Source: Sulfuriferula nivalis
Lineage (GTDB): Bacteria > Pseudomonadota > Gammaproteobacteria > Burkholderiales > Sulfuriferulaceae
Assembly: GCF_009937995.1 (NCBI RefSeq)
Contig: NZ_AP021881.1
Coordinates: 1,612,001 to 1,676,000, forward strand
Direction of reading: 5' to 3'
Length of the DNA stretch: 64,000 bases
The position numbers and the translations under genes are program-made. The notes under the pieces were generated by a model, which searched no databases, was not told where the DNA came from, and saw nothing but the letters and a program-made list of their open reading frames with translations. This document shows positions 10,189 to 34,955 of this stretch, piece after piece (the first letter of the stretch is position 1; every line of letters begins with the position of its first letter).

Positions 10189-10941
10189 ATGCAAGTGAAA
10201 TACACACCAGCTATACCTATTTTTCATCGTCTGCGGAGCGTGATCATAAGCACTCGTGTGCAAAAATCGGCCATTAATTCGTCTTGCAGACGCTTACCAG
10301 ATAGTGGATTCAGACGGCACTGGCTTGGGTCTGCGTTGGTGCTGGCGTTCATTACCCCCATGACAGCTTATGCCGGAGACCTTGAAACTGTAGAATCAGG
10401 CAAAAGCGGCCACTTCACTACGCCAAATCCTGAATTGCAATACATGCTTGCGTTGCATGATCAATATACCTCAGAACAACCGTATTCCAGTACCACGGCG
10501 GTCGCCGCTCAAACTGCTACCGTAGCACCCGACAGTCAGCCGATTCGATTTGGTACTGGCGCAGACGGCAAGAATTATCTGCTTCCGGCTGAGGAAATTG
10601 TTGGCTTCAATATCCTGCTCAATCGATTCAATTACTACTTCATTGATAAGCAGGTGTATGGCACTACCTTGCAATCGGTAGGAGATAATTTGCACGGCAA
10701 ATGGATAGTCGATTCCGATCCGTTTGCCGTAAATCAGTTCATGCACCCATATCAAGGCTCGGTTTACTTCGGGCTGGCACGTTCGAGCGGGCTCGATTTC
10801 TGGGAATCAATGGGTTATACGTTTGGCGGCAGCCTGTTGTGGGAGATTGCGGGTGAAACTGGCGCGCCTTCCATCAATGATCTGGTCACCACCGGCTTCG
10901 GTGGCTCTTTGCTTGGTGAGCCGCTATTTCGCATGGCTAAC
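10189..10941 (+). pseudogene. DUF3943 outer-membrane-type protein, N-terminal fragment (split by mobile element)
   Basis: The first 251 codons of a DUF3943 protein. A GGGAG ribosome-binding site precedes the ATG, and an unusually long N-terminal region leads to a signal-like hydrophobic stretch (SALVLAFITPMTAYAGD). The conserved domain then begins, with SVYFGLARSSGLDFWES and SLLWEIAGE. Reading stops two codons inside the mobile element (GAA TAA). The codon at the junction is AAC (10939-10941), and the same AAC recurs at 13385-13387 on the far side. Joining there restores ...LFRMA-N-LLLEGGG... in frame and a protein of about 558 residues. DUF3943 proteins are predicted outer-membrane or periplasmic proteins of unknown role. 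Confidence 0.85.
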
Positions 10942-10951
10942 GAATAAGGTT

Positions 10952-10981
10952 AGATTGTGATCGCGAAGCGAGCCACAATCT
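10952..10981 (-). repeat. Stem-loop at transposase-side end of element (copy 1)
   Basis: Outer arms AGATTGTG and CACAATCT are perfect complements; inside them TCGC-GAA-GCGA forms a second stem. The structure ends ten bases from the element boundary, which is followed (transposase direction) by GTTA. IS91-family elements carry hairpins beside the replication origin next to a GTTC or CTTG tetranucleotide, so this is the best candidate for the origin end. The same structure is at 34514-34543 in copy 2. Confidence 0.65.
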
Positions 10982-11249
10982 GAACCGTTTGTTGGACAAG
11001 CCCGGCATGGCTGGGGCGGGTGTTGCTTGAGCGCTTATGGAAATATCTTTTTGACTATGCTGGCATAACTGGACGCGTTACGCATCCCACCCGCCATTTC
11101 ACGACCTTCACGTTGCCATTGCAGCAACTTATTCTATTCAACTCACCGTTTTTAGTCGGCTTTTCGGGCATGTTAACCCAATTTCAGCCTTCTTCAGGGC
11201 GAGCACGGCCATACCTGCCTAGTCTGGCAGGTGGGCGGTGTGGGCTGGT

Positions 11250-12365
11250 TTAGCGCATGGTCTCCCACCCTGTGTCATCTGCTCTGTGTTCCCGTTTTAT
11301 AGATGGGGCTGATGTGGCTAGCGGTATCGCTTTGATACGTGTGCGCACTATCTTCATCACCCCACCGCAACATTGGCAACGTATCGCTGGTCTGGGTTGC
11401 GCTGGCGGCGGATTGTTCCGTCGCCATAGGTGGGTCAGCTGTAGCTGGGTGAGTAGTTTGCTATTGGGATGCAGGTAGCCAAAGTTGCGGGCGCGGCGGT
11501 AGCCTTTGGGCAGAATGTGTTGCAGTATCAGTCGCAGGAAGGCTACACCACTCAAGGTACGGGTTTCCATTTGTTTGGTTTGGCTGTTCCGGTAACGGAA
11601 GGTGACCTGACCATGCCGGTCGGAGAGGATGTCTTTCTCCTGTATCACCCCCCGATACAGATAGCGCCCAAGGTAGATCAGAGCGTGCTGTCCAGTGCCG
11701 ACGGCTTTGCAATCCACCACCCAATCGGTCGGGTAATCGTTTGGCAGGGTGAGTCCTGCTTGTCTGATGCCTGCCAGTAATTTGGCACGAAATACTTTGG
11801 CCAGGGCTTTGTGGTTAAACAGGTAGTTGCCGTGTTTATGACGCATGCGTCGCTGTTTGGGGTTAAAGGCGACAGCGGGCATGACGAGATGCACATGGGG
11901 GTGATAGTCCAGTCGGCGGTTATGGGTATGCAGTACAGTCACCGCCCCTGCGCTGCCGCGCAGCTTGTTGTCGTTTTGGCTGAAGGTGTTGACTGTTTCC
12001 CACGCGCAGCGTGTGATCAAGTCATACATGACGCGCTGATGTTGCCAGGCCAGTGTGCGCAACTGGGCGGGCACGGTGAAGGTGAGCATGAAGTAGTTGG
12101 CGGGGATGGATTTGTGTAATTGCTGGTCTATCCAGCGCTGTGATTCGTGCGCCTGGCAATGCGGGCAATGCCGATGACCGCAGGAATGTGGCAGGTAGCT
12201 GGGTGTTTGACAATCATCACAGGCAAGTTGCATCCTCGGGCTCATCTGGCTACGGCAGGTTTGAAAGGCGGTTAAGGCAGCTTGCTGGCTGGGCAATAGG
12301 TGATGACCGTGTTGTGCAAGCAGTTTAGCTGCGTAGGTTGCTACGATGTGCGCCAGTCTGATCAT
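11250..12365 (-). CDS. IS91-family transposase (HUH, two-tyrosine), copy 1
   Basis: About 371 residues from ATG 12365, identical to copy 2. Residues about 25-85 are the N-terminal zinc-binding domain ([15 protein letters not shown]). The HUH metal-binding motif is HPHVHLVMP, and the paired-tyrosine motif is YLGRYLYRG. Such enzymes nick and rejoin single-stranded DNA in rolling-circle-like transposition. A C-terminal CQCCGG motif suggests another metal site. The start at 12365 is preferred because it overlaps the stop of the frameshifted recombinase (ATGA); a TTG five codons upstream is possible. The enzyme looks intact. Confidence 0.93.
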
Positions 12366-13275
12366 TTGACTTTGCCCCAATGAATGTGGAATTTCTCCAT
12401 TAATTGATTAAGGCGAGTGTGTGCGCTCTGATGGCGTTGTTCGGTGAGGTGGGTGTAGCGGATGGTGGTGAGGATGGACTGGTGTCCGAGTATCTGCTGA
12501 ATTTCGAGTAAATCGATGCCAGCTTCTATCAGGTGGGTGGCATAGCTGTGGCGCAGGCTGTGTGGTGTAATTCTTTTTTTAAGCCACAGTCACGGGTCAC
12601 TTGACCCAAGGTGGTCTGGATACCACCACGATCCAGCGGGGTGCGTGCCAAGTGCGATTTGGCAAGACCGCCGTGTCGATTAGGAAAGAGCAAGCTTGGG
12701 TTGCGATGGGTGAGCCAGAAACGGCGCAATACCTGCAAGGTGTTCTCTGATAACGGCACCAATCGATCACGGTTGCCTTTGGCGTTGCGTACTTGCACCC
12801 GCATCCGATCCGCATCGATATCCCCTACCTGCAAGCGTAAGCCTTCGCCTAATCGTAAGCCCAGGCTGTAGAGGGTGAAGAAGAATACGCGGTAGCTCAA
12901 TACGCGGGTGGCCATGAAGATTTGTTGTGCCTGGGCGACGGTAATGATGTCGGGCAGGCTATATGACTTGGGTGGTTTAACCAGATCCGCACCTGGCCAG
13001 GGTTGGCTGAGTACATGGGCATAATAGAACTTCAGTCCATACAGATCATGTTTGAGCGTACTCCATGAATGGGTATCCAGGATGCGAACAAAATAGTCGG
13101 TTAATTGTGGCTTGGTGAGCGCGTCTATCTGGTCATTAAAATACACCGCTGCGCGCCGTACGCCGTGTGAATACAAGGCGATGGTTTTAGGCTGCATGCC
13201 TCTGAGCTTGAGGCAATTCAGCAGTCGCTGGTGATTGTGCTCGAAGTGCGCGGGGATGGGTGTGGGGGCTGTCAA
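12362..13275 (-). CDS. Tyrosine recombinase of the IS91-like element, needs -1 frameshift, copy 1
   Basis: Identical to copy 2 at 32220-33133, where details are given. The zero frame from TTG 13275 ends at 12529 after 248 residues, without the catalytic HxxR, LGHQS and tyrosine boxes. A -1 shift on the A7 run (12574-12580) restores a 304-residue XerC/D-like recombinase ending at 12362, overlapping the transposase ATG. The start is TTG with a GAGGAG ribosome-binding site. Confidence 0.8.
12574..12580 (-). other. A7 slippery run in recombinase, copy 1
   Basis: On the coding strand the zero frame reads TTA AAA AAA GAA. A -1 slip gives AGA and continues into the catalytic C-terminus. Same as 32915-32921 in copy 2. 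Confidence 0.6.
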
Positions 13276-13387
13276 TGTCGTCTCCTCGTGGTACAGTAAT
13301 CAAAATTCCATTGCTGGGGGAGACGAAATTATGCTGCGTAATTTGATGGTTCGGGAATATTTCTCCGCGATAGCGGCTTCGTTCAAC

Positions 13388-30600: not shown

Positions 30601-31598
30601 GATGCTTCCTGTGGATAGCCTGAAATACAGGCCTGTTGTAATTTATATTCAGCTGCATGTGTTAGCCAGCCCTGAGTTGCTTGTAATATGCGGTGATAAT
30701 ACGTATGTTTGCTGAGTACCTGCTGACGAGCATTTGCCGCTATCTTAGCAGCTTCATTTGTGTTCACTAATAAGTATTGAACTTGCTTGAGCATTTCATC
30801 TGGTGTTTTGCTAGTCAGGATGGCAGTGCTATCAAAAAAATCGGAAAAGCCAGGTCGATAATCAGTTACTTGGGGGATGCCATAGGCAGCGCATTCAAAA
30901 GTACGCATATTAGTGCCTTGTTTCACCACTTTGGCGTGAATATTTATGCTGATTCTGTACTTGGCATAAATATATTTCATTCGCTCATTATTAACCCCTG
31001 GGTAAAAATTTGATGGGTTACGCCAAAATAAAGCTGTACGCAAAAAATAATTTCCATATATTTGAATGTCAGTTTTTTGATTGATCAGGTATTTTAGCCA
31101 ATTGTCACGTAGTGGATCTTTATTTCCTATAAAACAAATATCACGAGAGGGTTTTTGAATAAGTTGTGCAGGTTGGTGCAGTCTTGGATAGCATCCAAAC
31201 GCTAATTCACCGTGATAACGTGGTTCACTTATATTCGCCAGAAGTTTTTGTTCATAACCTAAATCGGAAATAAATATACGTTCAAATGCGTCATCCTCAC
31301 CTAATTTTATACTGGGTGCATCCGTCATCCATAATATGTTATGACGATCAGTACGTAGTTTTTTAAAGATACTAAGATGATTAATAAAAATAGCTACATC
31401 ATATTCTGCTTGATTGATGCTTGTGATGAGCTGATCTAACCAAGCTGATTTATCATGTCGGTAACGCAAATATTCTGCCACGTTATCCGGGTAAGTAGGT
31501 AGCCATTGCACCTGATGAGGGAATACATCATTTAGTGATTGAAATATGTATTTGGCTAACCCACCTTTCCATGGTTTGGCGACAAGTAGGATTTTCAT
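30591..31598 (-). CDS. CgeB-like glycosyltransferase (GT-B, DUF3880 type)
   Basis: 335 residues. N-terminal MKILLVAKPWKGGLAKYIFQ; a middle region ending CFIGNKDPLRDNWLKYL; and a C-terminal donor domain with ISINIHAKVVKQGTNMRTFE, CAAYGIPQVTD and ILTSKTPDEMLKQV, as in CgeB / glycosyltransferase family 1_2 proteins. It probably adds a sugar in the LOS or surface glycan pathway. Its start overlaps the end of the split GT2 gene by four bases, so they belonged to one operon. Confidence 0.78.
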   Translation of the reverse strand: MKILLVAKPWKGGLAKYIFQSLNDVFPHQVQWLPTYPDNVAEYLRYRHDKSAWLDQLITSINQAEYDVAIFINHLSIFKKLRTDRHNILWMTDAPSIKLGEDDAFERIFISDLGYEQKLLANISEPRYHGELAFGCYPRLHQPAQLIQKPSRDICFIGNKDPLRDNWLKYLINQKTDIQIYGNYFLRTALFWRNPSNFYPGVNNERMKYIYAKYRISINIHAKVVKQGTNMRTFECAAYGIPQVTDYRPGFSDFFDSTAILTSKTPDEMLKQVQYLLVNTNEAAKIAANARQQVLSKHTYYHRILQATQGWLTHAAEYKLQQACISGYPQEASCR

Positions 31599-32107
31599 GC
31601 CGCTCTTGCCAATTGCTCGGCATAATATTTGTAATTATTCGCTGTAGGCATACGGAATGGACTTGCTAGTACATCTTTGAATATAGATAACAGCAGCGTA
31701 GGTTGTTTTTTTCTGCTCCAGCGATATATGCGATGCAGGTTGTCACGGAAACTAAGTTTTCTGATTGCTGTTGGAATTAAATCTCCATGTTCGTCCAAGA
31801 ACTTGGCGAATGTACGCATCATTGCTTCAAGCATGAGATGCTGATTACGACTGGTGTTGTGTGGGTGATAACGATAGCTGGCTAAAACTTCGGGTAATCG
31901 TGCAATACTGTAGTCAACGGATAATCGTAGCCAACAATCCCAATCCTCCAGTTTTAAGCCTTCATCGAATCCACCTATAGCTAAAAAAGCTTCTTTGTTT
32001 ATGACGATGGTAGGGTTAGTAATCGGATTTTGTAGAAATAACTGTAGATAAGCTCTGCTAACAACACCTGCTTCAGGGCGATTTTTCTGAAGTTTCTTGA
32101 TAGTTAT
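31595..32107 (-). pseudogene. Glycosyltransferase family 2, C-terminal fragment (split by mobile element)
   Basis: About 170 codons that continue the gene begun at 34955. After the junction AAC the frame reads ITIKKLQKNRPEAGVVSRAY, then NPTIVINKEAFLAIGGFDE, GLKLEDWDCWLRLS and VLASYRYHPHNTSRN. These are the second half of a GT2 catalytic domain, including the ED/W motif near the acceptor site. It lacks the nucleotide-sugar-binding N-terminal half. Reading from the element's TTG-free leader would give a hybrid of no evident function. Confidence 0.85.
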
Positions 32108-32219
32108 GTTGAACGAAGCCGCTATCGCGGAGAAATATTCCCGAACCATCAAATTACGCAGCATAATTTCGTCTCCCCCAGCAATGGAATTTTGATTACT
32201 GTACCACGAGGAGACGACA

Positions 32220-33133
32220 TTGACAGCCCCCACACCCATCCCCGCGCACTTCGAGCACAATCACCAGCGACTGCTGAATTGCCTCAAGCTCAGAGGCATG
32301 CAGCCTAAAACCATCGCCTTGTATTCACACGGCGTACGGCGCGCAGCGGTGTATTTTAATGACCAGATAGACGCGCTCACCAAGCCACAATTAACCGACT
32401 ATTTTGTTCGCATCCTGGATACCCATTCATGGAGTACGCTCAAACATGATCTGTATGGACTGAAGTTCTATTATGCCCATGTACTCAGCCAACCCTGGCC
32501 AGGTGCGGATCTGGTTAAACCACCCAAGTCATATAGCCTGCCCGACATCATTACCGTCGCCCAGGCACAACAAATCTTCATGGCCACCCGCGTATTGAGC
32601 TACCGCGTATTCTTCTTCACCCTCTACAGCCTGGGCTTACGATTAGGCGAAGGCTTACGCTTGCAGGTAGGGGATATCGATGCGGATCGGATGCGGGTGC
32701 AAGTACGCAACGCCAAAGGCAACCGTGATCGATTGGTGCCGTTATCAGAGAACACCTTGCAGGTATTGCGCCGTTTCTGGCTCACCCATCGCAACCCAAG
32801 CTTGCTCTTTCCTAATCGACACGGCGGTCTTGCCAAATCGCACTTGGCACGCACCCCGCTGGATCGTGGTGGTATCCAGACCACCTTGGGTCAAGTGACC
32901 CGTGACTGTGGCTTAAAAAAAGAATTACACCACACAGCCTGCGCCACAGCTATGCCACCCACCTGATAGAAGCTGGCATCGATTTACTCGAAATTCAGCA
33001 GATACTCGGACACCAGTCCATCCTCACCACCATCCGCTACACCCACCTCACCGAACAACGCCATCAGAGCGCACACACTCGCCTTAATCAATTAATGGAG
33101 AAATTCCACATTCATTGGGGCAAAGTCAAATGA
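32220..33133 (+). CDS. Tyrosine recombinase of the IS91-like element, needs -1 frameshift, copy 2
   Basis: Start TTG 32220 with GAGGAG six or seven bases upstream. The zero frame encodes 248 residues and ends at 32966. It contains the N-terminal SAM-like DNA-binding domain, the first catalytic Arg (LGLRLGEGL) and the beta-hairpin Lys (NAKGNRDRL). It then turns to nonsense ([14 protein letters not shown]) just before the expected HxxR box. A -1 slip on the A7 run at 32915-32921 continues as [31 protein letters not shown] and ends HIHWGKVK at 33133, giving a full XerC/D-like enzyme of 304 residues with all catalytic residues. Its stop overlaps the transposase ATG. Programmed shifting, transcript slippage or a shared old mutation all fit. 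Confidence 0.8.
32915..32921 (+). other. A7 slippery run, candidate -1 frameshift site
   Basis: Zero frame TTA AAA AAA GAA; A-AAA-AAA is a classic tandem-lysine slip site used by insertion sequences. A -1 shift yields Lys-Lys-Arg and joins the catalytic half of the recombinase. Any downstream stimulatory structure has not been assessed. Confidence 0.6.
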
Positions 33134-34245
33134 TCAGACTGGCGCACATCGTAGCAACCTACGCAGCTAAACTGCTTGCACAACACGGTCATCACCTATT
33201 GCCCAGCCAGCAAGCTGCCTTAACCGCCTTTCAAACCTGCCGTAGCCAGATGAGCCCGAGGATGCAACTTGCCTGTGATGATTGTCAAACACCCAGCTAC
33301 CTGCCACATTCCTGCGGTCATCGGCATTGCCCGCATTGCCAGGCGCACGAATCACAGCGCTGGATAGACCAGCAATTACACAAATCCATCCCCGCCAACT
33401 ACTTCATGCTCACCTTCACCGTGCCCGCCCAGTTGCGCACACTGGCCTGGCAACATCAGCGCGTCATGTATGACTTGATCACACGCTGCGCGTGGGAAAC
33501 AGTCAACACCTTCAGCCAAAACGACAACAAGCTGCGCGGCAGCGCAGGGGCGGTGACTGTACTGCATACCCATAACCGCCGACTGGACTATCACCCCCAT
33601 GTGCATCTCGTCATGCCCGCTGTCGCCTTTAACCCCAAACAGCGACGCATGCGTCATAAACACGGCAACTACCTGTTTAACCACAAAGCCCTGGCCAAAG
33701 TATTTCGTGCCAAATTACTGGCAGGCATCAGACAAGCAGGACTCACCCTGCCAAACGATTACCCGACCGATTGGGTGGTGGATTGCAAAGCCGTCGGCAC
33801 TGGACAGCACGCTCTGATCTACCTTGGGCGCTATCTGTATCGGGGGGTGATACAGGAGAAAGACATCCTCTCCGACCGGCATGGTCAGGTCACCTTCCGT
33901 TACCGGAACAGCCAAACCAAACAAATGGAAACCCGTACCTTGAGTGGTGTAGCCTTCCTGCGACTGATACTGCAACACATTCTGCCCAAAGGCTACCGCC
34001 GCGCCCGCAACTTTGGCTACCTGCATCCCAATAGCAAACTACTCACCCAGCTACAGCTGACCCACCTATGGCGACGGAACAATCCGCCGCCAGCGCAACC
34101 CAGACCAGCGATACGTTGCCAATGTTGCGGTGGGGTGATGAAGATAGTGCGCACACGTATCAAAGCGATACCGCTAGCCACATCAGCCCCATCTATAAAA
34201 CGGGAACACAGAGCAGATGACACAGGGTGGGAGACCATGCGCTAA
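33130..34245 (+). CDS. IS91-family transposase (HUH, two-tyrosine), copy 2
   Basis: Identical in translation to copy 1 (11250-12365). Intact zinc-binding N-terminus, HPHVH metal site and YLGRYLYRG tyrosine pair. ATG 33130 overlaps the TGA of the frameshifted recombinase frame, so ribosomes that shift would arrive exactly at the transposase start. A TTG at 33115 gives five extra residues and cannot be excluded. About 310 bp after the stop (34246-34553) are noncoding and end with the stem-loop 34514-34543. Confidence 0.93.
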
Positions 34246-34513
34246 ACCAGCCCACACCGCCCACCTGCCAGACTAGGCAGGTATGGCCGTGCTCGCCCTG
34301 AAGAAGGCTGAAATTGGGTTAACATGCCCGAAAAGCCGACTAAAAACGGTGAGTTGAATAGAATAAGTTGCTGCAATGGCAACGTGAAGGTCGTGAAATG
34401 GCGGGTGGGATGCGTAACGCGTCCAGTTATGCCAGCATAGTCAAAAAGATATTTCCATAAGCGCTCAAGCAACACCCGCCCCAGCCATGCCGGGCTTGTC
34501 CAACAAACGGTTC

Positions 34514-34543
34514 AGATTGTGGCTCGCTTCGCGATCACAATCT
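34514..34543 (+). repeat. Stem-loop at transposase-side end of element (copy 2)
   Basis: Arms AGATTGTG and CACAATCT with an inner TCGC/GCGA stem; ends ten bases before the element boundary, which is followed by GTTA. Counterpart of 10952-10981. Confidence 0.65.
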
Positions 34544-34553
34544 AACCTTATTC

Positions 34554-34955
34554 GTTATTTTCATCAATGTAGTCAGCATCTGCATAAACTAGTGCTAAAT
34601 TTGGATCTGCCCAGGCTTTAATAGCATCTTGCTGATGTGCAATTTTGTCTGGGTGTATCAAGTCATCTGATCCTAACAAATGTACCCATTCTCCATTGCA
34701 TAGTGCGATTGCTTTATTTGATGTTGCACTCACACCCTTATTGTTTTGTGATTCAAAAATAATATTTGCGAATCTATTTTGGTGTCTATTTAGGAAGGCA
34801 GAAATTTTATCTGCTGTATTATCTGTTGAGCCATCATCAATGATAACAAGCTCTATATTGGGGTAAGTCTGATCAACAACCGATTGCAAACATTGCTCAA
34901 TGTAGCGTGCATGGTTGTATGCTGGTATTGCGACACTAACGAGTGGATTAATCAT
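34554..34955 (-). pseudogene. Glycosyltransferase family 2, N-terminal fragment
   Basis: The first 134 codons of the split gene. GT-A fold features: NPLVSVAIPAYNHARYIEQC, VIIDDGSTDNTADKI and the DxD-type region LLGSDDLIHPDK, then LVYADADYIDENN. Translation enters the element and ends at once (GAA TAA). With the C-terminal part (31595-32107) the original enzyme would be about 304 residues. Its start overlaps the methyltransferase stop (ATGA-type), so the insertion probably also weakens the downstream CgeB-like and ligase genes. Confidence 0.87.

Follow-up and report, generated by a model that had tools for sequence, protein, structure and literature searches.

The recombinase gene of a mobile element in Sulfuriferula nivalis raises the question of whether a reading frame that ends ahead of the catalytic residues marks a broken gene or one that is decoded in two frames. 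We analyzed a 64,000-nucleotide stretch of the genome (the window; coordinates without a prefix refer to it, and features lie on the plus strand unless stated otherwise). The original prediction had placed an A7 run at 32915-32921 and the end of the zero frame after 248 residues, and both were confirmed in the sequence. The zero frame reads the run as TTA AAA AAA GAA, i.e., as the heptamer A_AAA_AAA, and counterpart runs are present in relatives. The zero-frame product of 248 amino acids (32220-32966; TTG start at 32220, TGA stop at 32964-32966) has Pfam matches to Phage_int_SAM_4 and to the initial portion of Phage_integrase, that is, a SAM-like DNA-binding domain followed by the first part of a tyrosine-recombinase catalytic domain. 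The -1 frame adds 70 codons (32921-33133; TGA stop at 33131-33133), which read on from the run through ...ILGHQS...IRYTHLT... to GKVK, with HSLRH as HxxR. The Phage_integrase profile is divided between the frames, with positions 3-128 in the zero frame and 126-171 in the -1 frame; this split and the translation bear out that HxxR, LGHQS and the Tyr (in RYTH) are absent from the zero frame and intact in the -1 frame. The predicted shifted product has 304 amino acids (234 + 70). That total had been given correctly, while the 56 residues assigned to the -1 frame are the excess over 248 and its own part is 70 codons. Because the -1 frame of the window has a stop 15 bases before the slip point (32921) and the zero frame has one at +43, the shift must occur between them.

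Copies and relatives of the divided gene

The two copies in the window (10938-13387 and 32108-34557) are inverted repeats with 100% identity, so the caution that had been voiced about their independence was justified. Their agreement, offered as evidence against decay, is weak as such, and it is the relatives that show the conservation. The genome holds 34 near-full-length copies, 33 of them nearly identical and one a 98% hybrid, as well as three fragments, and A7 is found in all 35 own-genome copies that span the site. The fragment L115, with 92.6% identity over 866 bases, also has A7. For the N part in the zero frame, comparison of the window copy with L115 gives a dN of 0.028 and a dS of 0.233; the C part of L115 is truncated at the fragment end, and the comparison covers the N part only.

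Relatives were collected by a contig scan with the -1-frame peptide, from which the best 80 loci of 451 relatives were taken, and by N-part searches over parts of the order, class and phylum, which gave matches in at least 7 of 399, at least 9 of 369 and at least 7 of 398 genomes, respectively, the own genome being among them each time. The queries did not contain the run itself, save its Lys residues, and at each locus the frame of the N half was compared with that of the C half. Clade membership was defined as an N half at least 55% identical, which gave 62 loci with both halves matched, 43 of them intact. The 19 left out were the own-genome fragment L115, the duplicates L126, L133, L156 and L157, and 14 damaged or cut members (L021, L023, L027, L031, L034, L043, L053, L057, L061, L069, L072, L073, L076 and L142). 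Removal of L118, identical to L052, left 42 distinct intact sequences, the window counted; at L158, L159 and L160 the C half is absent.

Among these 42 distinct intact sequences, 41 move into the -1 frame at one shared codon, and the remaining one (L044) is fused. Agreement of this extent at one codon is more than chance. The run is A8 in 32 of the shifted sequences, A7 in eight (the window among them) and A9 in one. The original prediction had proposed looking in related elements for a retained A run with an identical change of frame; such elements exist, all within one clade, and the preference it stated for recoding or transcript slippage over decay is supported. Uninterrupted homologues without the run, named beforehand as contrary evidence, occur only in the sister clade and at one tip inside the shifted clade, L044.

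In a tree of N halves (57 rows, site columns excluded; the rows include the duplicate L118 and also L151, L152 and L165, whose N halves are incomplete), the 42 -1 rows, one a duplicate, form one clade together with L044, with support of 100/100 (bootstrap not settled, correlation 0.925). L044 is a tip beside L060, which has the -1 change on A9. The sister clade, whose N halves are 41-50% identical, comprises 14 tree rows, of which 12 are uninterrupted and two (L137, L139) are +1. By this topology, the split state was gained at the base of the shifted clade or lost in the sister clade, and then kept. The fused state, a single base away, is yet rare among intact members of the shifted clade. A zero-frame stop at +43 is present in 35 of 41 shifted sequences as compared to none of 11 sister-clade genes; the sister-clade genes shown have the matching Leu and then another Leu, not Ile.

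These comparisons bear on two ways in which the frame change could be spurious. One is decay, in which loss of one base inactivated the recombinase and the transposase alone drives the spread of the element. The near-identical copies in the S. nivalis genome do resemble one recent burst and sister-clade genes are mostly uninterrupted, but the recurrence of one and the same shift in 41 of the 42 distinct intact sequences, retained catalytic motifs and a dN below dS in the -1 frame (8/8 pairs, see below) make decay very unlikely, and we regard it as refuted by the comparison with relatives. The other is a sequencing or assembly error in the homopolymer. Homopolymers are error-prone, and L027 has A7 where most of its kin have A8, with a different offset. 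Against such an error, 41 sequences, several from named isolates, agree in place and direction, and A7 is shared by L115 despite 7% divergence; we consider it the least credible of the explanations. The change is best read, on comparison of sequences, as programmed recoding, with the look of a dosage control, and not as damage or sequencing error. What speaks against recoding is that sister-clade genes and L044 manage without a shift and that damaged members are mixed in offset: of the 14, five are -1 (including L021, with the run destroyed), five are +1 and four keep the same frame.

Three further observations concern individual loci. In L031 (604-1518), an upstream frame change creates a single open frame of 304 codons through the A7 run, and the protein read from it would be partly out of register. 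Three loci of the sister clade, L137, L139 and the damaged L153, carry A7 at the equivalent codon and are offset in the opposite direction, +1; L139 has a zero-frame stop before its A7, and L152, also of the sister clade, has A9 and a fused frame. The +1 cases of the sister clade perhaps represent a separate slippage of transcript type.

Constraint on the slip site and on both frames

Both Lys codons of the run are AAA in all 41 shifted sequences, whereas elsewhere in these genes AAG accounts for 386 of 558 Lys codons; under each gene's own codon usage, log10 P for all-AAA is about -49.6, shared ancestry being ignored. The remaining 35,752 bases of these ORFs contain no other run of seven or more A. 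Of the 41 sequences, 36 (window included) retain the heptamer A_AAA_AAA in phase, and the other five read T_AAA_AAA_A, their preceding codon ending in T. The codon before the run is variable (CTA, TTA, ATA, GTA, CTT, ATT).

We calculated dN and dS for 12 close pairs, of which three are identical, nine are informative for the N part and eight for the C part. All nine informative pairs have a dN lower than dS in the N part read in the zero frame. The C part shows the same in 8/8 pairs when read in the -1 frame, while the same C part read in the zero frame has a dN above dS in 7/8. Purifying selection thus acts on both frames in the pairs tested. The catalytic motifs are kept likewise, with HxxR and GH in 42/42 rows, Y-T-H/Q in 41/42 and the strict R-x-G-E in 34/42 (one row being a duplicate).

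A further alternative is a split protein, in which the -1 ORF has a start of its own and the two pieces work together. Some ATG, GTG or TTG lies upstream in the -1 frame in 19 of 41 sequences, often 15 bases before the slip point. However, 22 of 41 have none before HxxR, among them the window, whose -1 frame contains no ATG, GTG or TTG between its upstream stop and HxxR, and six of 41 have a -1-frame stop immediately adjacent to the run. A split protein would also leave the AAA constraint unexplained, and we judge it highly improbable.

Ribosomal or transcript slippage

Low-level ribosomal -1 slippage on A_AAA_AAA is the probable mechanism. Most ribosomes would stop at 32964-32966 and release the 248-amino-acid protein, which would be capable of DNA binding and lack the catalytic HxxR, H and Tyr. 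A minority would slip back by one base, with two Lys-tRNAs on AAA AAA, and produce the 304-amino-acid recombinase. Ribosomes having slipped would terminate where the transposase begins: the ATG of the transposase overlaps the -1-frame stop as ATGA in the window, and across the shifted sequences the overlap is ATGA in 40 of 41 and GTGA in one. Because of this overlap, transposase output may be tied to the shift.

In the main alternative, which would still be programmed recoding, RNA polymerase adds an A within the run, so that part of the mRNA is full-length in frame. The run lengths leave room for such transcript slippage, as A8, present in 32 of 41 sequences, permits polymerase slippage, and A9 occurs in one. 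PMC3711429 associates poly-A stretches longer than 7 with slippage of the transcript. Moreover, two relatives with A9 are in frame, namely L034, which has a broken N half, and L152 from the sister clade, and L137 and L139 of the sister clade are +1. A stimulator of ribosomal slippage was not found either: alignment folding (pseudoknot-free) detected no conserved downstream structure beyond column-shuffled controls (z -0.01 to 0.79), the 65 bases downstream of the site are less folded than the genes are on average (mean z +0.78), and an SD-like word is absent upstream of the site in 38 of 42 rows, one a duplicate. On the other side, eight of 41 sequences, window included, have only A7, the A_AAA_AAA phase is kept in 36 of 41, and the direction of the frame change is uniform across intact members of the shifted clade. 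Uniform direction is a criterion for ribosomal rather than transcript slippage according to PMC3711429, which gives 10% for a cassette of 7 A's, 40% for one of 9 and 63% for one of 11. We consider transcript slippage rather unlikely, and the uniform direction, the kept phase and the A7 runs make the ribosomal form the likely one. A point against ribosomal slippage is that tandem re-pairing is poor on T_AAA_AAA_A, the site in five of 41 sequences.

The element, its ends and its target sites

The whole element (32108-34556, 2.45 kb) has GTT at both ends (32108-32110 and 34554-34556), its extent being defined by the repeat boundaries, the ends and flanks of 32 own-genome copies and the homology limits between relatives. 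Downstream of the recombinase gene, ORF2 (33130-34245) encodes an IS91-family transposase, as identified by Pfam and NCBIfam matches (Y2_Tnp, 131.6 bits; Zn_Tnp_IS91, 84.7 bits; NF033538, 347 bits at a cut-off of 125). It is thus an IS91-family element that carries an Xer/integron-like tyrosine recombinase gene. In the window it interrupts a glycosyltransferase-like gene on the minus strand (31595-32107 and 34557-34955), and joining the flanks with one GTT yields a frame that is open across the junction.

The copies in the S. nivalis genome lie between GTT triplets, with GTT at the right end in 31 of 32 and GGT in one. Their left flanks have T at -11 in 31 of 32 copies, C at -12 in 23, G at -9 in 22 and A at -8 in 25, and the right GTT is followed by a purine (A or G) in 31 of 32, which gives a target consensus of CTYGAA-N6-GTT on the left and GTT-R on the right. 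At the left junction of the window copy (32093-32110), sequence and own-genome flank comparison identify a target-like motif CTTGAT-N6-GTT in the flank. Relatives have these ends in common with the own-genome copies, and their left flanks also have T at -11 (33/41) and A at -8 (32/41); the ends of relatives were found by GTT-containing patterns, so that their GTT is given by construction, and pattern-free limits come from homology between relatives. For IS91-family elements, insertion beside a tetranucleotide of the GAAC/CAAG type, on the side of the origin end, is typical. Two neighbouring own-genome copies abut and share a single GTT. Flanks joined with one GTT aligned without gaps to uninterrupted relatives in 3/3 cases (72-85% identity), and these relatives have no GTT there. 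From these ends, we infer that the recombinase, and not the transposase or a host integrase, makes the GTT junctions, probably by joining the element, in circular form, to sites that contain GTT. As separate observations, the left flanks of the own-genome copies L103 and L109 differ while their right flank is common over at least 24 bases, and the region C1:3207092-3214442 of the same genome (L166, L170, L001, L114) contains a true integron integrase gene (484 bits against TIGR02249) in the vicinity of two element copies, one of them a hybrid with a diverged 3' part.

Some target sites are reminiscent of integron attachment sites. AACG occurs 46-60 bases upstream in 17 of 50 relatives from both clades, as compared to 1 to 7 in five of the other intervals and 10 in the interval at the junction itself, and an attC-like layout (AACG plus a complementary arm of at least five bases) was found in 15 of 50 relatives vs. 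3 of 32 own-genome copies. In such left flanks, e.g., those of L032, L025 and L052, the element sits at the GTT core. The joined ends of the element presumably resemble attC. A stricter RYYYAAC scan returned few sites. A hairpin as a general target feature was rejected, as the left flank joined to the right one did not exceed the right flank in folding (Wilcoxon p 0.63; 30 own-genome copies, single-base-shuffle controls). attC sites make up one target class and are not the rule in this genome.

A tentative model, which we put forward as a possibility and no firmer, is that of a two-enzyme element. The HUH transposase might make single-stranded circles, and a frameshift-rationed Xer/IntI-like recombinase might paste them into GTT sites (CTYGAA-N6-GTTR, attC among them) by integron-like exchange. 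With the inactive 248-amino-acid product and the ATGA overlap, one slip site could then dose recombinase, inhibitor and transposase. If the gene is indeed recoded, this way of controlling mobile DNA would reach beyond the transposases named in reviews and include a tyrosine recombinase, encoded in an HUH-type element and linked to the transposase gene through translation. Automatic annotation would label such recombinases broken, and active elements, some of them at attC-like sites, may pass for dead. Natural variants with A7, A8, A9 or a fused frame provide a ready series for relating slip rate to run length.

Comparison with known systems

The recombinase resembles Xer and integron integrases. 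The natural one-frame ORF of L044 matches XerA (5hxy; 1.2e-25, full-length alignment) and IntI4 (2a3v; 3.7e-25). In contrast to an integron integrase, this ORF scores 160 bits against TIGR02249 at a cut-off of 265, and the two parts in the window score 71 and 54 bits, below the same cut-off. The element end GTTGRAC fits the integron core site GTTRRRY given in PMC9229058, which also describes the IS91-like ISShvi3 as adjoining an integron attC site. Unlike Xer and IntI, the recombinase described here belongs to a transposable element. Among IS91 elements, plasmid records of the sister clade likewise have the recombinase followed by the transposase with a 4-base overlap. They differ from the shifted clade in that 12 of 14 sister-clade rows are uninterrupted, whereas the shifted clade needs the -1 change. 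Our plasmid searches yielded two weak matches at the DNA level and six protein records, none of the shifted clade by identity.

The IS1, IS3, IS5 and IS630 families have DDE transposases, and a stimulator, i.e., a downstream structure or an upstream SD-like word, is usual but not obligatory for -1 frameshifting in insertion sequences. The arrangement described here shares with programmed -1 frameshifting of the IS1/IS3 type an upstream DNA-binding ORF, a catalytic part in the -1 frame and an A-rich slip site. The same four families are named for programmed frameshifting in PMC5009743, and in PMC4066793, A_AAA_AAA is a motif of a proven IS cluster. Here, however, a tyrosine recombinase stands beside an HUH transposase, and no stimulator was found. 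Literature searches, with partial coverage that left most subscription papers outside, returned no account of a frameshifted tyrosine recombinase associated with IS91; 'integrase' and 'recombinase' are absent from the text of PMC3711429, and its 'IS91' match may be IS911. Within the literature searched, frameshifting is known for DDE transposases of insertion sequences, and the tyrosine recombinase of an IS91-type element represents a new case.
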